DNA from: a virus
Virus record (IMG/VR): IMGVR_UViG_3300021957_000095
Coordinates: 1 to 41,361 of that record
Strand: one strand, 5' to 3'
Length of the DNA stretch: 41,361 nt
Below are positions 3,323 through 22,628 of the stretch, one piece after another. Position 1 is the first letter of the stretch; the number at the start of each line of letters is the position of its first letter. The position numbers were made by a program, and so were the translations under genes. The notes beneath the pieces were generated by a model that saw only the letters and a program-made list of their open reading frames with translations, did not search any database and was not told the DNA's origin.

Positions 3323-5140
3323 ATGACGTACGTTAAAATATCTGACCTTAGCTTTGCTCAAACTTTAACCGGTAATGAAATATTACCGGTAGTGCAGAAT
3401 GGTACGTCGTATAAAGTATCAGTTAGTGCTGTTGGAGGTGCAGGTGGTGATACGGAGAATATTAATGGTTGCTGCAATGATATTAGTACCGGTAGTAACT
3501 ATAGTAGCATTGTAGGCGGTAAATATAACGATGTTTATGGTAACTGTAGTTTTATAGGTGGCGGTTCTACTAATGCATTATCAGCTGATTTTGGGTTTAT
3601 AGGTGGCGGTAATAGTCATAAAGTGTATAGCCCGGGAGGTATAATCGGTGGAGGTTCGCAAAATCTAATTGATATAAATGGTTATATCGATACTATCGGT
3701 GGTGGTAACGGTAACAGTATACGTCCTAGTTTTAAAAACTCATTCATTGGTGGAGGGTACGGTAATGCGATGTCTAATGTCAGCCCGGATCGCTTTTGTG
3801 CATCTACTGCGTCACGGTTTAATAGTATAGGTGGTGGTAATCAAAATGCTATAGGGGGATTTTGTTTTACAAAATGTGCACATTCGAATACCATTGCCGG
3901 TGGTAAATACAACGGTATAGGTGGTATAGAATTACAGTTGTTCCCTAATGAGAATTGTACATCAAATTATAATTTTATAGGCGGTGGTTATTCAAACGGT
4001 GTAAATGGACACTTTTCTGGTATTACTGCAGGTAGCTGTAACAGGATACATGCAAACCTCTCCGGTGCATTTATTGGAGGTGGTTATAGTAATACTATAC
4101 GTAATGTAGATGGTACTGAGGGTGGAGATTATTCATCTATTGTTGGTGGTAAACAAAATCAACTGTCAGCTGATTTTGGATTTATCGGCGGTGGATGGGG
4201 AAATACTGTATCATCAGCGTGCGGTACTATTGGTGGTGGTTATGGCAATTCATTGAGCAGTGTTGGTGGGTTTATCGGGAGTGGTTTAAACAATACAGTA
4301 AAAAGTGGATTAGCCACCGACTTCAATACGGGTCAATTACTACCCGTACCGGCAATAATTGTAGGTGGTCAACGCAATAAAATATTAAATTCAACTTCCA
4401 GTTTTATAGGCGGCGGTGATGCTAATAAAATCGCCGGCTATGCCGCATGCGCCACCGGTAATATCATAGTAGGTGGTTATGGCAATCAGAATATAGACGG
4501 TTTCCAAAGTGTTATAATTGGAGGCACTCTTAATACTTTAAGTGGTAATAACATCGACCGCGACAGTAACTCTAGAAACCTTATAGGTGGAGGCTGCCAG
4601 AATACAATAATAGGCCATGGTAATGAGAGCTCACAACACAATGCTATTTTAGCCGGGTCAAACAATCAAATTGGACCAGAAACTGAACCTGGCGAGAAAA
4701 TGTTGGACAGTGTAATTGCTGGTGGTAAATTTAATCAAATTATAACTTGCGGTGCTAGCACCACCAGCTTTATAGGTGCAGGACAAGGTAATAGTTTAAC
4801 CGGTACGAATTTTGCAGGTAATAGTCTTTTTGCTAACGTAAGTGGTTTAAATAATGCTGTTGTTGCAGGGTATGATGTTGATATTTACGGATGTCAGAGT
4901 TTTATTGGCTCTGGATTTTTAAATACAATTTGCGGTGACTACTCGTCAATCATAACAGGTTGTAGTAATAATAATAATCATAATAACTCGCATATTGTAG
5001 GTTCAGATATAACAACTGTTTCTGGTAATATGCTTCATGCAAATACGTTATATTTAAGTGCTGCAGCTTTACCGACGACCGATCCTGGTGTATCTGGGGT
5101 TGTCTGGAGAGACGGTACAGATTTAAAGATAAGTTTATAA
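3323..5140 (+). CDS. Tail fibre/adhesin-like Gly-Asn repeat protein A
   Basis: A 605-residue probable tail adhesin. The N-terminal 40 residues (KISDLSFAQTLTGNEILPVVQNG) resemble the attachment end of phage tail proteins. The body is built of many GGG-x-x-N units (IGGGSTNALSA, IGGGYGNSLSS) with variable loops, resembling the stacked head repeats of trimeric autotransporter adhesins. The C-terminal 45 residues (from about SDITTVSGNMLHANTLYL to the end) match paralogue B at 5528-7111 almost exactly. Repeat spacing is irregular compared with B. A TATAAATA-type late box lies 5 nt upstream of the start. Role as a host-recognition fibre is inferred from repeats, end conservation and late promoter; the receptor is unknown. 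Confidence 0.8.
   Translation: MTYVKISDLSFAQTLTGNEILPVVQNGTSYKVSVSAVGGAGGDTENINGCCNDISTGSNYSSIVGGKYNDVYGNCSFIGGGSTNALSADFGFIGGGNSHKVYSPGGIIGGGSQNLIDINGYIDTIGGGNGNSIRPSFKNSFIGGGYGNAMSNVSPDRFCASTASRFNSIGGGNQNAIGGFCFTKCAHSNTIAGGKYNGIGGIELQLFPNENCTSNYNFIGGGYSNGVNGHFSGITAGSCNRIHANLSGAFIGGGYSNTIRNVDGTEGGDYSSIVGGKQNQLSADFGFIGGGWGNTVSSACGTIGGGYGNSLSSVGGFIGSGLNNTVKSGLATDFNTGQLLPVPAIIVGGQRNKILNSTSSFIGGGDANKIAGYAACATGNIIVGGYGNQNIDGFQSVIIGGTLNTLSGNNIDRDSNSRNLIGGGCQNTIIGHGNESSQHNAILAGSNNQIGPETEPGEKMLDSVIAGGKFNQIITCGASTTSFIGAGQGNSLTGTNFAGNSLFANVSGLNNAVVAGYDVDIYGCQSFIGSGFLNTICGDYSSIITGCSNNNNHNNSHIVGSDITTVSGNMLHANTLYLSAAALPTTDPGVSGVVWRDGTDLKISL
3473..3610 (+). repeat. Direct repeat, 5' copy in adhesin A (partner 5675-5812)
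   Basis: A 138-bp tract shared with 5675-5812 in adhesin B, with one mismatch seen (C at 3576, T at 5778). Flanking parts of the two genes are clearly more diverged, so this looks like recent gene conversion or selection on a shared module. Confidence 0.9.
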
Positions 5141-5527: not shown

Positions 5528-7111
5528 ATGGCTTACGTAAAAATATCTGATTTAAATTTTGCTCAAACTTTAACAGGTAATGAAATATTACCGGTAGTGC
5601 AAAATGGTACATCGTATAAAGTATCAGTTAGTGCTGTTGGTGGTACCGGTGATACGGAAAATATTAACGGTCGATGCAATGATATTAGTACCGGTAGTAA
5701 CTATAGTAGCATTGTAGGCGGTAAATATAACGATGTTTATGGTAACTGTAGTTTTATAGGTGGCGGTTCTACTAATGTATTATCAGCTGATTTTGGGTTT
5801 ATAGGTGGCGGTACTGGTCATATTGCATATTCAATAGGTGGCTTTATAGGCGGCGGCTCAGGTAATGATACATGTCCTAATACATGCCTTGATACTATCG
5901 GTGGTGGTAACGGTAATGTAGTTGATTCAGGATTTAAACTTTCATTTATTGGCGGCGGTAAAAGTAATTTTATGGAAACCGGCAACGCTTGTGCAAGTGC
6001 AGATTCAAGTTTCAATAATCAAGGTAACACAATCGTCGGTGGTAATCAAAATTCAATAGGCACAAAAGGTAACCCTCTAAAGGGGTTACCGGGAATGACA
6101 AAAGCTTTATGTCATAATACTGTTGTAGGTGGTTATTTGAACAAAATTTCTAAATTCGGGACAATAGCTAACCCGCTATCAGCTGAAGATTTAGAATCAA
6201 AATATAGCTTTATAGGCGGCGGTGTAAATAACGGTATAAACGGTAACTATACTGCTATAGTTGGCGGAAGTAATAATAAAGTATACTCCGGTGTAAAAGG
6301 TGGTTTTGTAGGAGGTGGAGTATACAATACTATACGTAATGTAGACGGTACCGCGGGTGGAAATTATTCATCTATCGTTGGTGGTTGTTGTAATAATGCT
6401 ACCGGTAATTGTTCGAATATAGGCGGCGGTACGCTTAATACATCTAGTGGTGATGTTGCAACTATAGGCGGCGGTGGGGTTAATAATGCTAGCGGTGCTT
6501 GTTCAACTATAGGTGGTGGTATACAAAATACAGCTAGTGGTGATCGTTCGAACGTAGCTGGCGGCGGGGTTAATTATGCTACTGGTATTGGTGCAACCAT
6601 AGCTGGTGGCTTTGTTAATTATGCTATTGGTAATTGCTCGAGCATAGGTGGAGGTGTAAACAATAGAGCTGATGGTTTTGCTGCAACTTTAGGTGGCGGA
6701 GGTGATAATATAGCTAGTGGTTGTTATTCAACTTTAGCTGGAGGTGTAGACAATACAGCTAATGGCTGTAGATCAACTGTAGCTGGAGGTATACAAAATA
6801 CAGCTAGTGGTATTGCTTCAAACGTAGGCGGTGGTAGAAAAAATACAGCTAGTGGTAATTATTCGAATGTAGCTGGTGGTTGCAATAACAATTTATCTGC
6901 ATCGTTTGGTTTTATTGCTGGTGGGTGTTCTAATAATTTAAAAACAGGACATAGTAACTCGCAAATACTCGGTTCAGATATAACAACTGTTTCTGGTAAT
7001 ATGCTTCATGCAAATACGTTATATTTAAGTGCTGCAGCTTTACCAACGACCGATCCTGGTGTATCTGGGGTTGTCTGGAGAGACGGTACAGATTTAAAGA
7101 TAAGTTTATAA
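5528..7111 (+). CDS. Tail fibre/adhesin-like Gly-Asn repeat protein B
   Basis: A 527-residue paralogue of the protein at 3323-5140. The N-terminal 40 residues and C-terminal 45 residues are nearly the same as in A; the centre differs. Residues about 283-447 form eleven 15-residue repeats with consensus IGGGxxNxASGxxST, each exactly 45 nt. These probably stack as a beta-roll or beta-helix shaft, as in trimeric adhesin heads. Several repeats carry a cysteine (GACST, GNCSS, GCYST). No strong late box lies in the 5 nt between the upstream stop and this ATG, so it is probably co-transcribed from 5136. Role in host binding is inferred; the duplicate may give alternative specificity. Confidence 0.8.
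   Translation: MAYVKISDLNFAQTLTGNEILPVVQNGTSYKVSVSAVGGTGDTENINGRCNDISTGSNYSSIVGGKYNDVYGNCSFIGGGSTNVLSADFGFIGGGTGHIAYSIGGFIGGGSGNDTCPNTCLDTIGGGNGNVVDSGFKLSFIGGGKSNFMETGNACASADSSFNNQGNTIVGGNQNSIGTKGNPLKGLPGMTKALCHNTVVGGYLNKISKFGTIANPLSAEDLESKYSFIGGGVNNGINGNYTAIVGGSNNKVYSGVKGGFVGGGVYNTIRNVDGTAGGNYSSIVGGCCNNATGNCSNIGGGTLNTSSGDVATIGGGGVNNASGACSTIGGGIQNTASGDRSNVAGGGVNYATGIGATIAGGFVNYAIGNCSSIGGGVNNRADGFAATLGGGGDNIASGCYSTLAGGVDNTANGCRSTVAGGIQNTASGIASNVGGGRKNTASGNYSNVAGGCNNNLSASFGFIAGGCSNNLKTGHSNSQILGSDITTVSGNMLHANTLYLSAAALPTTDPGVSGVVWRDGTDLKISL
5675..5812 (+). repeat. Direct repeat, 5' copy in adhesin B (partner 3473-3610)
   Basis: Second copy of the 138-bp shared tract, offset 2202 bp from the first, in the same reading frame of the paralogous gene. 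Confidence 0.9.
6374..6868 (+). repeat. In-frame 45-nt tandem repeats (11 units)
   Basis: Eleven consecutive 15-codon units, each opening with an Ile/Val/Leu codon then Gly-rich GGN triplets, an AAT (Asn) and a GGT (Gly) at fixed places. The period is exact with no indels, although third-codon positions vary. This makes the array a likely site for repeat-number change. Confidence 0.88.
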
Positions 7112-10026: not shown

Positions 10027-10776
10027 ATGCAAAATAAAAAAGTTATAGTTACGTTATCTGGAGGCGCTGATTCAGCAGTATTGCTTTATAAAGCTGCTGA
10101 GCAATATGATGAAGTACATACTGTTACATTTGATTATGGTCAGCGACATGAGAGTAGAGAGGTAGGAGCTTCTGAGAAGCAATTATTAAATGCAAGTGTA
10201 GATTACCCGAATGTAACTTTTACTAACAAGTTACTAGATGTAAAATACATTAAAGATATTGCACCTACTTCATCTCTTACAAATAATGATATAGAAACAC
10301 CTAATGTAAAAGATATTATGGGTGAAGCGCAGCCGAAGAGTTACGTTCCATTCCGTAATTTAATGTTCATAAGTATATTAGCATCTTATGCTGAAGCAAT
10401 AAAAGCGTCAGAAATTTGGTATGGTGCTGCTGAGGCAGATAGCTTAGCTGGTTACTGGGATGGCTCTGCAGAGTTTGTTGATGAGATGAATAAATTAACA
10501 TCACTTAATAGAGAATATAAAGTAACGCTCGTTGCTCCTCTTATTAAAATGTCTAAGAAGGATATTATATTAGATGGTGTTTCTTTAGGTGTTAACTTTA
10601 AAGATACATATACTTGTTACTCTGGTGAATACCCTTGTGATGCTGAGTCTGCTAGTAGCAGCTTACGGTTAAAAGGCTTTATAGATGCTAAGCTAAAAGA
10701 TCCTCTTTTATATAAACAGCAAGATAAGCTAGACGCTGTATATGAAAAGAATGATTGTAAGACAATTGTAAAATAA
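10027..10776 (+). CDS. queC: QueC-like 7-cyano-7-deazaguanine (preQ0) synthase
   Basis: QueC converts 7-carboxy-7-deazaguanine to preQ0 using ammonia and ATP. The PP-loop SGGADS is at residues 11-16, followed by TFDYGQRH and VPFRNLMF, all typical of the family, and the length (249) is normal. The C-terminal zinc site is degenerate. C197 and C204 remain, but the two ligands expected at 207 and 210 of the C-x2-C-x2-C run are Glu and Ser. In phages QueC usually feeds 7-deazaguanine DNA modification that blocks restriction. The glutaminase and formyltransferase genes 1.5 kb downstream fit that. No QueD, QueE, FolE or DpdA gene is in this window, so substrate supply and insertion are unseen. Confidence 0.9.
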   Translation: MQNKKVIVTLSGGADSAVLLYKAAEQYDEVHTVTFDYGQRHESREVGASEKQLLNASVDYPNVTFTNKLLDVKYIKDIAPTSSLTNNDIETPNVKDIMGEAQPKSYVPFRNLMFISILASYAEAIKASEIWYGAAEADSLAGYWDGSAEFVDEMNKLTSLNREYKVTLVAPLIKMSKKDIILDGVSLGVNFKDTYTCYSGEYPCDAESASSSLRLKGFIDAKLKDPLLYKQQDKLDAVYEKNDCKTIVK

Positions 10777-10780
10777 GTAA

Positions 10781-10814
10781 AAAAAAAGGTATGAAATATT
10801 TCATACCTTTTTTT
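10781..10814. terminator. Bidirectional terminator (34-nt perfect palindrome)
   Basis: A perfect palindrome with A7 on one side and T7 on the other (core GGTATGAAAT/ATTTCATACC). It lies between convergent queC and the minus-strand gene ending at 10833, so it can terminate both. Confidence 0.92.
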
Positions 10815-10832
10815 ATTTGTATTTAAAATACT

Positions 10833-12215
10833 TTAGTAGCCGTGTGTATGGCGCCTTTGCTGTGCATATAAGTTTTGAACTCGTTGTCTCTCTTGAACAG
10901 CAAGATGTTGATTAATCTCTAATTGAGACATCTTAACCTCTTCAGCTTCTTCTCTCGCTTCTGCAGGAGCTGTTGACATATACTGGCTGGTTGAAAACTC
11001 TTCATCTTCTCCTCCTTCTCTTTTTCTGAAGTAGAATTTTTGAAGTGTATTGTATCCCCATTCATCAGGATTAAAGTTTTCGAAATTTTGTACCATTTCA
11101 AATTCTTCAGGTGATAGAATAGATAATTCCTCAAGCGGTGTGTTGTCGAGATTTGCCTCTTCATCTTCATAATGATCAGCAACTGCTCTTGCATGAGATT
11201 GACCAGCTCTTTCTTGCTCTTTCTTCATCGCTTTAGCAATAGCTTCCCCTCTACTCTTTTCATATTCAGAGATTTCACCATCATCGTCTAAATCAGCTTT
11301 TTCAGCGTCAATCTCTTCATCACTATAAGGGCAGTTTTCAGCATCTTCTTGCTCATACTCTGGATAATTACCAACTTCTCTTGGGTCCTGTCTTACTTCA
11401 TCATGTACATTACCCTTTTCATACTCTTCATCTTCCTTCTGAGCTTGCATATCTTCTAGATTTGTTTCAATGACATCCATTGTATCAACAAGATATTGAC
11501 GAATAACATTATATTCTTCGAAGTCAGCAATATAATCTAAGAATTTTTCAAACTGAGATAAATTATCAATTTTTGCAACCGCATCAGCAACATTATCAAG
11601 AGCTTCTTGCGATACATCTTCTTTTTCAAGTTGTGAAATAACACTACCAACAGCAGTTCTAAGAAGTAGTTTTTCATCTGATACATCATCACCAGCATCA
11701 AACTCATCTTGCTTTTTAGCGATTGCATCTGTAGTAGCATCTGCAATTTCTTGAGCTGTTAATTTGCTATAATCTTTTCTAACATACCCTTCTGCTCTCT
11801 TAGGCCGCACGCCTTTACCTTGTCTTAAAGTAGCAGCTGTATTTAGAAATTGTGAAACTCTATCTAAGCCGGTATCTGTCTTTTCAGCTGAATATTGTTC
11901 AAAACCTGCTCCAATTGTATCAAGTAGCTCAGGCTTTTCAGTTGCGATCTGACCGACAATCGCATTTACGTCTTTTGCACTTGGTTTTCTTGTCTCAAAA
12001 CCAGCTGGTACCACTTCAGGGTAATTATCTTGCAAGAACTTAAAGAAAAATAGACGAGCATCTCTATAAGGTAACCCGATATTTAACTTCTTCATTTTAT
12101 TCATTACAGGTTTAAGAGTCTTTGCGATACTCTCTTCAACCAAGTCGCCAGAAACGTAGCTCTGCGTATTTTCATTAATAATAGTCGGTTTTGTTGCCCA
12201 TGAGATAAAGTTCAT
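10833..12215 (-). CDS. Acidic virion-type protein with EF-hand-like loop
   Basis: A 460-residue acidic protein of unknown function on the minus strand. Residues about 30-70 hold a short region (LKPVMNKMKKLNIGLPYRDA), followed by long helical acidic stretches. At residues 308-319 is DLDDDGEISEYE, which fits the canonical EF-hand calcium loop (Asp at 1, 3, 5, Gly 6, Ile 8, Glu 12). It is followed by a basic helix (KSRGEAIAKAMKK). The C terminus is Gln/Arg-rich. The start is placed at 12215 because a TATAAATA-like late box lies exactly 5 nt upstream on this strand. Late promoter and composition suggest a capsid-core or other virion protein. It interrupts a run of early plus-strand genes. Confidence 0.8.
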   Translation of the reverse strand: MNFISWATKPTIINENTQSYVSGDLVEESIAKTLKPVMNKMKKLNIGLPYRDARLFFFKFLQDNYPEVVPAGFETRKPSAKDVNAIVGQIATEKPELLDTIGAGFEQYSAEKTDTGLDRVSQFLNTAATLRQGKGVRPKRAEGYVRKDYSKLTAQEIADATTDAIAKKQDEFDAGDDVSDEKLLLRTAVGSVISQLEKEDVSQEALDNVADAVAKIDNLSQFEKFLDYIADFEEYNVIRQYLVDTMDVIETNLEDMQAQKEDEEYEKGNVHDEVRQDPREVGNYPEYEQEDAENCPYSDEEIDAEKADLDDDGEISEYEKSRGEAIAKAMKKEQERAGQSHARAVADHYEDEEANLDNTPLEELSILSPEEFEMVQNFENFNPDEWGYNTLQKFYFRKREGGEDEEFSTSQYMSTAPAEAREEAEEVKMSQLEINQHLAVQERQRVQNLYAQQRRHTHGY

Positions 12216-12220
12216 ATTAA

Positions 12221-12228
12221 TATTTATT
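12221..12228 (-). promoter_or_regulatory. Late promoter box AATAAATA (minus strand)
   Basis: Read on the minus strand, AATAAATA followed by TTAAT and the ATG at 12215 (5-nt gap). It overlaps the -35 box of the divergent early promoter by 2 bp. Confidence 0.65.
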
Positions 12229-12254
12229 GATTTTTAATAAATTTCTACTATAAT
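12227..12254 (+). promoter_or_regulatory. Early-type promoter of the glutaminase-gp41 operon
   Basis: TTGATT (12227-12232), 16-nt spacer, TATAAT (12249-12254) preceded by AC. The ATG at 12265 follows after 10 nt. It is the only clear promoter seen for the genes up to about 17.1 kb. Confidence 0.8.
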
Positions 12255-12264
12255 ATGTAATATA

Positions 12265-12969
12265 ATGTGCGGTATATACATGTCAAATAATTTATCGATG
12301 TTCGAAGTATTAGAGCAAGCCAATAGAAAGAGAGGAAATTTTTCTACTGGGGTCTTTCATGCTTATAGAGCATCATCATATAAGGTTGTAAAGAAGCGCT
12401 TCTTTACATCGGTTGTAAAGAAGCAGGGTGGTATTGACTGGGATGAAGTAAAGCTACCTAGCGATAATTCTAGCAACTTTATATACCTAGGACATAATCA
12501 AGCTCCTACAAGCAGTGCACGGGAATGGAAAGAAGAGACCTCTCACCCATTCTGGTACGGTGATTGGGTTGTAGCTCATAACGGGGTTTTAACAAATTAT
12601 GAAGAGCTTATTGATGAATATCTACCAATGCATGATAGCCCCGTCGATAGTAGTATTATACCTGCATTATTAGATGAATTTGAATATAATCATGGTCCAT
12701 GCGAGGATGCAGATACAGAGATACAGAATATTTTATATACAATTGAAAAACTTAAAGGTACTTTTGCTCTTTGGATTGTTAATATTAGAACGATGAATGT
12801 TTATATAGCTAGACAGGGTAGTACGCTTTTCTATAATGATTCTAATGTATCGTCTGTAAAGGGAGATGGATATAAAGAAGTAGAGGAGGGCATACTTTAC
12901 AGTTATACGTCCGAGGGACTAGTAGAGCAAGATAATTTTAAGTACGATTCACCATTTTTAACATTATGA
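12265..12969 (+). CDS. Class II glutamine amidotransferase (glutaminase domain)
   Basis: Releases ammonia from glutamine for a partner enzyme. The start is fixed by the N-terminal nucleophile: Met1 then Cys2 (MCGIY). Other family positions are present: RGNFSTG around residue 23, HNQAPTS at 77, HPF at 94, HNGVLTNYEEL at 105 and DSS at 128. Only the glutaminase domain is here (234 residues); no synthetase or isomerase domain follows. An acceptor enzyme must therefore be supplied separately. The next gene (formyltransferase) overlaps it by 4 nt, and queC is 1.5 kb upstream. Class II glutaminase domains fused to QueC (Gat-QueC) make archaeosine-type bases, so a split Gat/QueC pair is a reasonable hypothesis. 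Amino-sugar or nucleotide synthesis are alternatives. Confidence 0.88.
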   Translation: MCGIYMSNNLSMFEVLEQANRKRGNFSTGVFHAYRASSYKVVKKRFFTSVVKKQGGIDWDEVKLPSDNSSNFIYLGHNQAPTSSAREWKEETSHPFWYGDWVVAHNGVLTNYEELIDEYLPMHDSPVDSSIIPALLDEFEYNHGPCEDADTEIQNILYTIEKLKGTFALWIVNIRTMNVYIARQGSTLFYNDSNVSSVKGDGYKEVEEGILYSYTSEGLVEQDNFKYDSPFLTL

Positions 12970-13514
12970 GACATATAGCATTATTTTCACAAACCGGTTC
13001 CGAGGTAGCAAATCTTATTGATCAAGGATTTACCCCGACTACAATATTATTTGATCAAAAAGATGATACTAAAATTGATAGTAGACTTAATACTGATGAG
13101 ATAGGCCATCAAATTGTAAAGAAGAATGTTAAGAACGTACAGTATTTGAGAGATTGTTTTGGTGACCCGTCAACATGTTTTATTACGTTGCATGGATGGC
13201 TTAATATCATCCCGAAGGAGATATGTAAGGAGTATGAAATTTATAATGGTCATCCTGGGTTAATCACAGTATACCCAGAGCTTAAAGGTAAAGATCCGCA
13301 GGTACGTGCCTTTGACGGTAATTACCCTATTGTAGGATCAGTTATTCATCGAGTTACACCGGGTGTTGATGAAGGAGAAGTCTTAATGTCGACGCATGAA
13401 TATAATAATTGCAATAACATAGATCAAATGTTTGAGATGTTAAAGAGTTTATCTCTTTCTTTATGGGTTGATTTTTTCGATAATAGATACGATAATAACG
13501 TATGGGAGAGTTAA
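12966..13514 (+). CDS. Formyltransferase (PurN/Fmt-type catalytic domain)
   Basis: Transfers a formyl group, normally from 10-formyl-tetrahydrofolate, to an amine. The 182-residue protein has the catalytic set of the formyltransferase N-terminal domain. Asn94 and His96 lie in YNGHPG, and Asp135 in PGVDEG, after VGSVIHRV. A hydrophobic LHGWLNIIP strand precedes the active site. The N-terminal 60 residues are shorter and less conserved than in PurN. It overlaps the glutaminase stop (ATGA). Candidates are a DpdN-like enzyme acting on a 7-deazaguanine base in DNA (DpdN is the predicted dPreQ1 formyltransferase of phages), a sugar N-formyltransferase linked to the rml genes 7 kb away, or a purine-synthesis enzyme. 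Context favours the first but does not prove it. Confidence 0.85.
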   Translation: MRHIALFSQTGSEVANLIDQGFTPTTILFDQKDDTKIDSRLNTDEIGHQIVKKNVKNVQYLRDCFGDPSTCFITLHGWLNIIPKEICKEYEIYNGHPGLITVYPELKGKDPQVRAFDGNYPIVGSVIHRVTPGVDEGEVLMSTHEYNNCNNIDQMFEMLKSLSLSLWVDFFDNRYDNNVWES

Positions 13515-13840
13515 AGACAACAGGAAAACCACGACAGTTTGAAACTGGTGCACAACGTGATTGCGGTGAAGGTAAGTTGAGGATGAGTTTAGTACCAATA
13601 AAGCCACTGCAGTCTGTTATGATGAGATATCTTCAAGGAGCCGAGACATATGGGGAAAATAATTGGAAGAAAGGTATGAACCACTCTGTATTATATGACA
13701 GTACTATGAGACATTTAATGGGAGATTTCACTGGGGATGAAAGTGAAGATCATCTCGGAGCTGCATTATGGAATATCATGGGTATGATCTGGAATAGAGA
13801 AAACAAACCTGAATTAGACGATCGCAAGGATTATGAATAA
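13502..13840 (+). CDS. DUF5664 protein (dATP/dGTP diphosphohydrolase N-terminal type)
   Basis: A 112-residue protein with the DUF5664 pattern: ETGAQRDCGEGKLRMSLVP at residues 14-32, then QGAETYGENNWKKG around 45-58 and STMRHLMGDF plus EDHLGAALWN later. The family is associated with dATP/dGTP pyrophosphate hydrolysis in phages, which points to shaping of the purine dNTP pool. It overlaps the formyltransferase by 13 nt and the following glycosyltransferase by 8 nt, so all are translated from one message. No Shine-Dalgarno sequence is visible before the ATG. The family match is firm; the reaction is inferred from the family. Confidence 0.8.
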   Translation: MGELKTTGKPRQFETGAQRDCGEGKLRMSLVPIKPLQSVMMRYLQGAETYGENNWKKGMNHSVLYDSTMRHLMGDFTGDESEDHLGAALWNIMGMIWNRENKPELDDRKDYE

Positions 13841-14510
13841 CATAAAGATTTATACAGCTGTAAAAGGTAAGAAAGAAACTACACCTCTCTATAAATCTTT
13901 AAATCGCGTTTTAGTAGATTATGGTCCAATAATGCCGTTTGATGTACATTACGAAGAGAATAATACTAGGAGCTTGCAAATTTGCTATAATACTTTCTTA
14001 GAAGATGCTAAGCAGAATGATATTGATATTGCTGTTTTTATACATGATGATGTTTTTATTAATACAAGAGACTTGCGATCTCGTCTGCAGGATAGCGCGA
14101 ACCGATATACAGTATTTGGGCTAGCTGGAGCTACTTCCTGTAAAATTGGTAACCCTGCTTTATGGCATCTTATGTCAGAGAGAAAGGATCAGAGAGGTTG
14201 TGTAGCTCACGGGAATGAAGAGTCGTATATGTATACTTCCTTCGGGCCTATCCCTAGCAGATGTTTAATTATTGACGGGGTATTCATTGGTATTAATATA
14301 AAGCAGTTACCTGAAGAAGTAAAATTCGATGAGACATACCCATGTAAATGGCACTATTACGATTTAGATTTCTCACTTGAATGTAATAGGAACAATGTTA
14401 AAATAGGCGTGGTTGATATACCCGTCATACACTCAAGTCCCGGGTTAACGAATCCTGATAAAGAGTTTTATGACGGTCAACATTACTTTATTAATAAATG
14501 GAAAAAATAG
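13833..14510 (+). CDS. GT-A fold glycosyltransferase
   Basis: A 225-residue enzyme expected to move a sugar from a nucleotide-sugar donor. It shows the metal-binding HDD at residues 71-73 (AVFIHDDVFI), CLIIDGVFIGI around 144-154, HYYDLDFSLEC at 174-184 and a late IPVIHSSPGL with His200. This layout is typical of short GT-A glycosyltransferases in T4-like phages. The acceptor is unknown: phage DNA, a virion protein, or a host surface sugar. It lies between the nucleotide-modification genes and gp41 in one overlapping operon, and the phage also encodes dTDP-sugar synthesis near 20-22.6 kb, a possible donor source. That link is inference. Confidence 0.8.
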   Translation: MNNIKIYTAVKGKKETTPLYKSLNRVLVDYGPIMPFDVHYEENNTRSLQICYNTFLEDAKQNDIDIAVFIHDDVFINTRDLRSRLQDSANRYTVFGLAGATSCKIGNPALWHLMSERKDQRGCVAHGNEESYMYTSFGPIPSRCLIIDGVFIGINIKQLPEEVKFDETYPCKWHYYDLDFSLECNRNNVKIGVVDIPVIHSSPGLTNPDKEFYDGQHYFINKWKK

Positions 14511-20075: not shown

Positions 20076-20939
20076 ATGAATATAGCTGTACTCGGATCAG
20101 GGTTTATTGGTAAATATCTTAATAGTTACCTTTCAGATAACCATCTTACATACCTTCTTAACCAGACGGATGATCAGTATCACGTATCACATCGTCTTAG
20201 AGAATTTATTAAAACGCATAGAATTGATGTTGTAGTTAATACATGTGGATATACAGGTTACCCTAACGTAGATGCATGCGAAGATAATAAAGCTTCATGT
20301 ACATTATATAACATTACAGTACCGCTAGTAATTGAAGAAGAGTGTAAAGCTGCAAATGCTAAATTTATTAACGTGAGTTCTGGTTGTATATATACCGGTT
20401 ACGATAAAGATTATGTAGAAGATGACGAACCTAATTTTGGTATATATAATCCCGATTCTAGTTTTTATAGTAAGACAAAGCATTTAAGCGAGATGTTTTT
20501 AGATAAAGACTTTACTAATATTATTCGTATTAGAATGCCAGTTACAAGTAAGATGGACCATAAGAATCTTCTTTCTAAATTAAACAAATACGATAATATT
20601 ATTGACTTTAAGAATAGTAAAACTGATGTGGTTAAATTATGTCAGTTTATTGAAGTAGTAGTAGAGAATTTTAAGCCAGGTATTTACAACGCAGTACATA
20701 ATAAGACTCTTACAACGAGAGAGGTTACGGAGATTATGGTAGAGTACGGGATACAGAATGATAATTGGAAGTTTATACCATATGAAGATTTAGATATTCA
20801 AGCAAACAGAAGTAATTGTGTATTAGATAATAGTAAAGCTAAGAGAGACTTTGATTTTGATTTTGGAGATGAAGAATATTATATTAGACTTAATTGCGCT
20901 ATTTTACAAAAATCAGAATCATGGCAAGAAAAGGTATAA
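20076..20939 (+). CDS. RmlD-like dTDP-4-dehydrorhamnose reductase (SDR family)
   Basis: An extended short-chain dehydrogenase of 287 residues that probably reduces a dTDP-4-keto sugar. The N-terminal NAD(P) site is GSGFIG (residues 7-12). DVVVNTCGYTGYPNVDACE matches RmlD's motif after strand 4. SSGCIYTG carries the catalytic Ser/Thr region and FYSKTKHLSE the Tyr-x3-Lys pair. It is first in an operon with rmlA (19-nt overlap) and rmlB. No RmlC epimerase gene is seen, so the final sugar may not be L-rhamnose, or the host may supply RmlC. An alternative is a 4-ketoreductase with another stereochemistry. Confidence 0.82.
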   Translation: MNIAVLGSGFIGKYLNSYLSDNHLTYLLNQTDDQYHVSHRLREFIKTHRIDVVVNTCGYTGYPNVDACEDNKASCTLYNITVPLVIEEECKAANAKFINVSSGCIYTGYDKDYVEDDEPNFGIYNPDSSFYSKTKHLSEMFLDKDFTNIIRIRMPVTSKMDHKNLLSKLNKYDNIIDFKNSKTDVVKLCQFIEVVVENFKPGIYNAVHNKTLTTREVTEIMVEYGIQNDNWKFIPYEDLDIQANRSNCVLDNSKAKRDFDFDFGDEEYYIRLNCAILQKSESWQEKV

Positions 20940-21679
20940 TTTTAGCTGGCGGTAATGGAACGAGATTGTACCCATTAACATATAGTATCTCAAAACAAGT
21001 TTTACCGGTTTATGATAAACCGCTACTACTATACCCGGTACAAACAGTTTTGGACGCTGGTGTAGATGAAATTATCTTTATTATCAAACCTGATCAGTAT
21101 TATAATTTTAAGCATTTAATTAACAAGTTACAATTACCGGTAAAGTATAATATTGTAATGCAGGGAGATCCTAATGGGTTAGCGCAAGCATTTATTTTAG
21201 CGGAAGAATATATTGAAGGTCATTCAGTTGTATTAGCTTTAGGTGATAATATTTTCTATAGCGACACATTAAATGAGGATCTTGCAAATATCTTACCAGA
21301 TGAAAATATTATATTTGGGTATGAAGTTAATAATCCGAATGCATATGGAGTTGCTGCATTTGATGATAACGATGTGTTAATCGATGTTGTTGAAAAACCG
21401 GCTGTACCACCAAGTAAGTACGCTATACCGGGGTTATATTTCTTCGATGATACAGTCGTTAAAAAAGCAAAGAGTTGCGAGAAAAGCAATCGCGGTGAAT
21501 ACGAAATCGTCGATGTAATTAAGCAGTATATAGCAGAGAAAAATATTAGCTTTTATAAATTAGATAAAGGAGCTGCGTGGTTTGATTGCGGTACAATTGA
21601 CGATTTATTAGATGCTGGTAATTTTGTAAAAGCTATACAAACGAGAACAAATAATAAAATTGGTTATGAAGCAAAGTAA
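20921..21679 (+). CDS. rmlA: Glucose-1-phosphate thymidylyltransferase (RmlA)
   Basis: Makes dTDP-glucose from dTTP and glucose-1-phosphate. The 252-residue protein begins MARKGIILAGGNGTRLYPLT, the nucleotidyltransferase signature, followed by SKQVLPVYDKPLLLYPVQ. VLALGDNIFY, ANPNAYGVAAFD-like NNPNAYGV and GEYEIVDVI all match RmlA. I choose ATG 20921 over the in-frame start at 20894 because it begins directly at the conserved N terminus. It overlaps rmlD by 19 nt and rmlB by 14 nt, so translation is coupled. Length is slightly below the usual 290, shorter at the C terminus. Confidence 0.93.
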   Translation: MARKGIILAGGNGTRLYPLTYSISKQVLPVYDKPLLLYPVQTVLDAGVDEIIFIIKPDQYYNFKHLINKLQLPVKYNIVMQGDPNGLAQAFILAEEYIEGHSVVLALGDNIFYSDTLNEDLANILPDENIIFGYEVNNPNAYGVAAFDDNDVLIDVVEKPAVPPSKYAIPGLYFFDDTVVKKAKSCEKSNRGEYEIVDVIKQYIAEKNISFYKLDKGAAWFDCGTIDDLLDAGNFVKAIQTRTNNKIGYEAK

Positions 21680-22628
21680 TGATGGAAGAAATATTTTAGT
21701 AACCGGCGGTTACGGATTTATAGGAGGTAATTTTATCCGATTCATTAGAGATAATTTCCCGCAGCATCGTATAGTGTGTTTGGATAAAAACGGATACGCG
21801 TCTAACGAAAATTTTGTTAAGGGTCTATGTGATGCTGAGTATAAGCTCGATTTAAGCGAGAGTAATACATTCGAAATATTATCAAAAAAAGAGAGTAAGT
21901 TTGATTATATCTTTAACTTTGCAGCAGAGAGCCATGTAGATAATAGTATTAAAGATCCATCAGTTTTTGTAAGATCTAATGTATTAGGTACGCAAAATTT
22001 ACTTGAATATTTCCGTAAGGCTAAATACGGTAAACTTATACATATTAGTACCGATGAGGTCTACGGCCATTTAGGATTTAATGACCCTTCATTTGTAGAG
22101 TCAACCCCAATTAACCCTCGTTCACCCTACGCTGCGAGTAAGGCATCAAGCGATCTCTTGTGTATGGCTTATATTAATACCTTCGATTGTAATATTAGTA
22201 TTACTCGATGCTGTAATAATTATGGCCCTAATCAGCATAGTGAAAAATTCATACCGACCATTATAAAATCACTTAGTAAAGATAAGAAAGTACCAATTTA
22301 CGGTGAAGGTTTAAATATCCGCGAGTGGATACATGTGTATGATCATAATTTAGCTGTCTGGGCAGTCGCGACAAAAGGTAAGAATGAAGTATATAACATC
22401 GGGTCTGGATTAGAATTTACAAATATCGAATTAGTTGATAAAATCTGCAAGATAATGAATAAGGATTTGGATAAAAGTGCGGTATTTGTTGAAGATAGAC
22501 TTGGCCATGATTTTAGATATAGCATTGACTGCAGTAAAATCCAAGAAGAACTGTTTTTTGAACCCTTATATACTGATTTTGACAGTCAATTAGAACAACT
22601 AGTTAAAGAATATGTATATGAAGCTTAA
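21666..22628 (+). CDS. rmlB: dTDP-glucose 4,6-dehydratase (RmlB)
   Basis: Converts dTDP-glucose to dTDP-4-keto-6-deoxyglucose with bound NAD. Motifs: TGGYGFIGGNF near the N terminus, NFAAESHVDNSI, STDEVYG (catalytic Thr-Asp-Glu), SPYAASKASSD (Tyr-x3-Lys) and RCCNNYGPNQ plus GEGLNIREWIHV. All are diagnostic for RmlB. Length is 320. The ATG at 21666 is preferred to the TTG two codons upstream. It is the third gene of the rmlD-A-B cassette. The sugar could decorate phage DNA, a virion glycan, or alter the host surface; the glycosyltransferase at 13833-14510 is a possible user. Confidence 0.94.
   Translation: MKQSNDGRNILVTGGYGFIGGNFIRFIRDNFPQHRIVCLDKNGYASNENFVKGLCDAEYKLDLSESNTFEILSKKESKFDYIFNFAAESHVDNSIKDPSVFVRSNVLGTQNLLEYFRKAKYGKLIHISTDEVYGHLGFNDPSFVESTPINPRSPYAASKASSDLLCMAYINTFDCNISITRCCNNYGPNQHSEKFIPTIIKSLSKDKKVPIYGEGLNIREWIHVYDHNLAVWAVATKGKNEVYNIGSGLEFTNIELVDKICKIMNKDLDKSAVFVEDRLGHDFRYSIDCSKIQEELFFEPLYTDFDSQLEQLVKEYVYEA

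Follow-up and report, generated by a model that had tools for sequence, protein, structure and literature searches.

Putative N-acylation of 7-deazaguanine in phage DNA and an exchangeable acyltransferase gene in a T4-like marine lineage

Phages decorate guanine, hiding their DNA from restriction enzymes. The virus record IMGVR_UViG_3300021957_000095 (41,361 bases, analysed at full length and hereafter called the window) is a fragment of the genome of an uncultivated marine T4-like phage. It carries, close together, genes for a QueC-family protein (7-cyano-7-deazaguanine synthase family), a stand-alone class II glutamine amidotransferase (GAT) and a formyltransferase (FT). Do these three genes belong to one pathway and, if so, which base does it make? 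They probably belong to a pathway by which the phage substitutes an N-acylated 7-aminomethyl-7-deazaguanine, here formyl-dPreQ1, for the guanine of its DNA. In many relatives the place of FT behind GAT is taken by a GNAT acetyltransferase, an exchange beyond what an earlier reading of the window, made without database searches (the sequence-only reading), could have seen.

QueC, glutaminase and formyltransferase

All three genes, which lie on the plus strand, are real and as that reading had described them. The product of queC (10027-10776; 249 aa) matched PF06508 (2.2e-50; 171.5 bits, cut-off 22) and TIGR00364 (153.9 bits, cut-off 150.3). GAT (12265-12969; 234 aa) starts with MCGI, so that cysteine is its second residue, matched PF13522 (2.7e-7) and has no synthetase domain; C2, R23-G24, H105-N106-G107 and D128 were invariant when 23 relatives were aligned. 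FT (12966-13514; 182 aa) matched PF00551 (1.5e-6) and its gene overlaps that of GAT by 4 nt, as ATGA.

Among 50,697 phage records, FT matched only Flavobacterium immuto phages (four records, 45% identity), in which the gene order is QueD-QueE-FolE-DpdA-FT-kinase-QueF. A scan of IMG/VR gave 80 FT relatives, and those outside the lineage of the window nearly all showed DpdA-FT-kinase-QueF, or whatever part of it the contig allowed; on about 70 viral contigs FT adjoined DpdA and/or QueF. In 2023 Cui et al. reportedly predicted DpdN, a PurN-like protein of phages with DpdA and QueF, to be the formyltransferase of dPreQ1. From its identity to the immuto FT and the roughly 70 contigs with this arrangement, the FT of the window is probably DpdN-type, as had been suspected, and would formylate (d)PreQ1. 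Alignment of 26 FTs showed that N94, H96 and D135 are invariant and that a block specific to the family, NGHPG-x-I...LKG-x-DPQ, is shared. A structure model of FT (pLDDT 93) has the PurN fold and, in the kind of comparison that the sequence-only reading had recommended, matched PurN first and sugar formyltransferases lower down.

QueC uses ammonia (PMC13329287) and a fused Gat-QueC yields dG+ in phage 9g (PMC6884629), so that the simplest role of GAT would be that of ammonia donor for QueC. Linkage of the two is strict, as queC was found upstream of GAT, within 3 kb and on the same strand, in all 62 distinct cases whose sequence sufficed for the test. GAT directly abuts queC in two further phage groups (L017 and G029), and FT lies elsewhere there. 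Since queC is always so near, GAT probably feeds ammonia to QueC, the two being a split Gat-QueC. To that extent the sequence-only reading holds up; the archaeosine-type base G+ on which its proposed product was built is not supported, as QueF keeps its reductase motifs in relatives (see below).

Of the canonical QueC signature tested (SGGxDS, YxQxHxxE, VPxRN, the zinc motif C(x)8CxxCxxC and YPDC; PMC13329287), the QueC of the window keeps SGGADS (the ATP loop), YGQRH and VPFRN. The final glutamate of YxQxHxxE is R in the window and E in the relatives L098 and L103.

Two observations concern the GAT gene itself. At 12385-12424 that of the window has a 27-nt in-frame insertion (9 aa) which creates a perfect 22-bp palindrome, TGTAAAGAAGCGCTTCTTTACA, and which is missing from the otherwise 98% identical GAT of L009; it is either a template-switch mutation or an assembly error. 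In addition, two contigs from sample 3300017782 (L097 and L003), whose QueC and FT are 97% and 89% identical to those of the window, break off within one and the same GAT gene, the former at its end and the latter at its start, and probably derive from a single genome split at that point.

Partner genes in long relatives

How would the base be made? FolE, from phage or host, with QueD and QueE, would provide 7-carboxy-7-deazaguanine, from which QueC, with ammonia from the separate GAT, would form preQ0. Reduction by QueF would give preQ1, a CP220-type transglycosylase (DpdA) would exchange preQ1 into DNA, and FT would formylate the aminomethyl nitrogen, with 10-formyl-tetrahydrofolate as donor, yielding formyl-dPreQ1. 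DpdA, QueF, QueD and QueE would be encoded on the part of the genome that lies off the fragment.

The sequence-only reading had proposed a 7-deazaguanine DNA-modification set and a search for its remaining genes. Run on long relatives, this search supported the proposal, because DpdA, QueF, QueD and QueE co-occur there with QueC-GAT. One contig of 185 kb (G001) carries DpdA, kinase, QueF, QueE, QueD, QueC and GAT, and one of 154 kb (G002) has the same set plus FT, which adjoins QueF and the kinase; FolE is present in addition in G004 and G005. FT is therefore encoded with DpdA and QueF in homologues that include a member of the same wider lineage, and the window ends short of these genes.

The QueF of the relatives bears on which form of the base would reach DNA. 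ESKSxKL (which binds NADPH), NCxVTxQPDWG and HFHEE were all kept in 85 of 96 distinct proteins, none of them on the window contig. The TIGR03138 score of QueF was 239 bits, under the cut-off of 293. QueF and QueF-L are not always separable by sequence alone, but dPreQ1 was present in Dp-1 and HVTV-1, both of which encode proteins of this sort (PMC6884629). With intact reductase motifs, preQ1 (an amine) is expected rather than G+. The most likely product is thus predicted to be formyl-dPreQ1, a known base, and not the new amidated and formylated base that the sequence-only reading had put forward.

The DpdA of the lineage shares 51% identity with immuto DpdA and 49% with CP220 gp056. As PF01702 (TGT) misses this type of DpdA, a home-made profile was used for the searches; PF01702 had missed DpdA even where its presence was known and was set aside as uninformative. 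This is presumably the type of DpdA that is linked to full replacement of guanine. CP220 gp056 itself (24675-25451 of L295) is annotated as a hypothetical protein, and it is likely to be the transglycosylase behind the replacement of all dG by dADG in CP220 DNA (PMC8306585).

A thymidylate-kinase-like gene accompanies DpdA (and FT or QueF), as at 15516-16040 of L002, 2736-3287 of L163 and 25493-26035 of L295, and is common to immuto, the relatives of the window and CP220.

Exchange of the gene behind the glutaminase

In many relatives the gene after GAT encodes a 157-aa GNAT acetyltransferase (PF00583, 4.7e-8, over the cut-off) in place of FT. Among 81 distinct GAT genes the following gene was FT in 15, GNAT in 38 and neither in 28, and in no case were both present; contig counts include near-copies, and counting distinct proteins lessens this redundancy without removing it. 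The ATGA junction with GAT was found for 15/15 FT and 37/38 GNAT genes. On a tree of GAT, glycosyltransferase and QueC, at least six changes between FT and GNAT are needed. Between L100 (FT) and L098 (GNAT), the 90% DNA identity breaks at the stop codon of GAT and is regained where the slot gene ends. Although some contigs in IMG/VR may be chimeras, the pattern of exchange holds across many samples.

Six GNAT contigs (G001, G021, G038, G046, G047 and G049) carry DpdA-kinase-QueF, with FT nowhere on them, and GNAT was not found on contigs with FT in DpdA/QueF clusters. G002 is among the members with neither gene behind GAT, and its FT sits with QueF. A model of the GNAT protein (pLDDT 85) has the GNAT fold (2r7h, TM 0.77), all its Foldseek matches were GNAT proteins, and R, G and A of the acetyl-CoA motif RxxGxA are invariant; there was no match to it in the 50,697 phage records. 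An Fmt-like protein encoded at 45829-46551 of G001 was weighed as a possible hidden FT and set aside; it is a longer formyltransferase, with a C-terminal extension, and is unmatched by the FT alignment.

Mutual exclusion, exchange at one site and the presence of DpdA and QueF in the absence of FT together suggest that the GNAT relatives probably make acetyl-dPreQ1. Most simply, FT and GNAT would share one acceptor amine, the aminomethyl group of preQ1, in which case phages with GNAT would carry acetyl-dPreQ1. The chances seem to us evenly balanced that the slot behind GAT is in general an exchangeable acyl-transfer module, in which FT would give formyl-dPreQ1 and GNAT acetyl-dPreQ1, 7-(acetylamino)methyl-7-deazaguanine. 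We know of no GNAT member that acts on a 7-deazaguanine and, to our knowledge, acetyl-dPreQ1 has not been reported as a DNA base.

Could the acylated amine belong to a sugar instead? FT and GNAT might acylate a dTDP-4-amino sugar (giving formamido and acetamido forms, respectively) with which the neighbouring glycosyltransferase would decorate a glycan of a surface or of the virion; their position near QueC-GAT would then be accidental. This was considered because RmlD-, RmlA- and RmlB-like dTDP-sugar genes lie at 20076-22628, 6.5 kb downstream in the window, and also occur in FT and GNAT relatives, and because a PF13712 glycosyltransferase (13833-14510, plus strand, in the window) is found 3' of GAT in 71/77 loci; alternation between N-formyl and N-acetyl amino sugars is known in nature. 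Nevertheless, it is unlikely, since neither the window nor G001 (185 kb) nor G046 (209 kb) has a sugar aminotransferase (PF01041), unrelated phages carry the same FT family between DpdA and QueF, and FT, at 182 aa, resembles PurN in structure better than it does the sugar formyltransferases. In addition, GNAT genomes have DpdA and QueF and no FT. The resemblance to PurN, the characterised family to which FT comes closest in both sequence and fold, might in turn suggest a viral GAR transformylase for purine synthesis, with GAT and QueC serving host queuosine or amide metabolism. However, FT reaches 28 bits with TIGR00639, the PurN equivalog (cut-off 150), has its own invariant block and adjoins DpdA and QueF elsewhere, which makes this reading hardly credible.

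A further reading keeps the modified base and changes its chemistry: a split Gat-QueC would make archaeosine-type G+, which FT would then formylate to a doubly modified base. The strict linkage of GAT and QueC and the dG+ made by the fused enzyme of phage 9g (PMC6884629) are in its favour, but it is very improbable because the QueF of long relatives would use up preQ0, phages without GAT (immuto, for example) have FT together with QueF and DpdA, and the usual acceptor in its enzyme family is an amine, an amidine presumably being a poorer acceptor. More plausible, and compatible with formyl-dPreQ1 as the product, is that GAT does not serve QueC and acts with the FT/GNAT/glycosyltransferase operon at another amidation step. 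In this lineage the GAT gene shares its transcription with that for FT or GNAT rather than with queC, behind which stands a separate terminator-like hairpin (10781-10814, a 15-bp perfect stem with T/A tails for both strands, by consensus match), and free ammonia suffices for bacterial QueC, which needs no glutaminase (PMC13329287). Such a role is possible, though doubtful given that GAT abuts queC in the L017 and G029 groups, where FT is elsewhere, and that fused Gat-QueC enzymes exist.

Several findings weigh against an N-acylated 7-deazaguanine pathway of this kind. The zinc motif and YPDC are not found in the QueC of the window, which has CYSGEYPCDAESASSSLR and YWDG instead; in all 78 of 78 QueC proteins of the lineage the CxxCxxC zinc ligands are absent, with the ATP loop and RN motif kept, so that the activity of these proteins is not certain. 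QueC of the L017 group, which also adjoins GAT, keeps the ligands; thus, their loss is not due to having GAT. CP220 and immuto have QueC, and GAT was not found in them, from which it follows that GAT is not essential to such pathways. The DpdA of the lineage matched nothing in Pfam or, by sequence, in the PDB and could not be aligned significantly with 9g DpdA; it owes its name to depositors and to its kinship with CP220 gp056. DpdA, QueF, QueD and QueE are all absent from the window itself. The sequence-only reading was correct that no DpdA is visible here; as the record is a fragment, genes missing from it are uninformative. A GAT-adjacent FT and DpdA were not found together on any one contig, and the longest contig with such an FT (G007, 61 kb) has only QueD and QueE.

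If formyl- and acetyl-dPreQ1 are indeed the products, two unrelated acyltransferases have replaced each other at least six times as the last decorating enzyme, at a single precise position and with the other steps of the pathway retained. Such repeated exchange of the last step is what one would expect should host enzymes come to recognise one of the forms, and it provides a natural experiment on the reasons for change in the outermost group. Acetyl-dPreQ1 is a concrete new base to seek by mass spectrometry, and the stand-alone glutaminase gains a candidate role in preQ0 synthesis.

Surroundings of the locus and known systems

The T4-like nature of the phage was revealed by genes for RecA/UvsX-like, DnaB-like helicase and gp32-like proteins, a T4-type terminase and a sheath protein. 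As the closest named terminases are just 34% identical, the lineage appears to be uncultivated. The three genes do lie within 3.5 kb, as the sequence-only reading had stated, although not as one operon: the queC and GAT reading frames are 1.5 kb apart and unfused in the window, and a convergent minus-strand gene (10833-12215; 460 aa, no assigned function) together with the hairpin splits them. One or two minus-strand genes likewise occupy this interval in L098 and L103. The 'early-type promoters' of that reading were unsupported because sigma-70-like matches are too many in this A+T-rich window (41 observed, 27.4 expected in the promoter scan); the one good match, TTGATT-16-TATAAT (12227-12254, plus strand), lies just 5' of GAT and is a consensus match against this high background.

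The next gene of the operon after FT (13502-13840, plus strand) encodes a 112-aa protein with the N-terminal domain of a dATP/dGTP diphosphohydrolase (PF18909) and is followed by that for the glycosyltransferase-like protein. The PF18909 gene adjoins FT or GNAT in the clade that bears the slot, possibly a tie to guanine nucleotide control. A PF13712 glycosyltransferase gene also stands right behind QueC-GAT in the distant G029 and may have a role in the pathway. Elsewhere in the window, two paralogous genes (3323-5140 and 5528-7111; 605 and 527 aa) are nearly identical at their ends, contain many IGGG..N repeats and probably encode fibre or adhesin-like proteins.

Compared with known systems, the window pairs a class II glutaminase with QueC as do the Gat-QueC enzymes of phage 9g and archaea, and the GAT profile matches the GAT domain of 9g Gat-QueC at 1.9e-11. 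It differs in having two genes, a QueC without zinc ligands and, from the QueF of relatives, an expected preQ1 rather than G+. CP220 resembles the relatives of the window in having a DpdA relative (gp056, 49%) followed by the thymidylate-kinase-like gene; it has no GAT and its base is dADG (PMC8306585). The immuto cluster has homologous DpdA (51%), FT (45%) and QueF (46%) and the same kinase that adjoins DpdA/QueF in the relatives. In contrast to the window, immuto has no GAT and its FT lies between DpdA and the kinase rather than beside a glutaminase; unlike the relatives of the window, no GNAT alternative was seen. The slot gene of those relatives shares the fold and the RxxGxA motif of GNAT N-acetyltransferases (PF00583). 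DpdN, a PurN-like formyltransferase of DpdA/QueF phages, is the counterpart of the FT of the window, which is set apart by its ATGA coupling to a glutaminase and by its exchangeability with an acetyltransferase.

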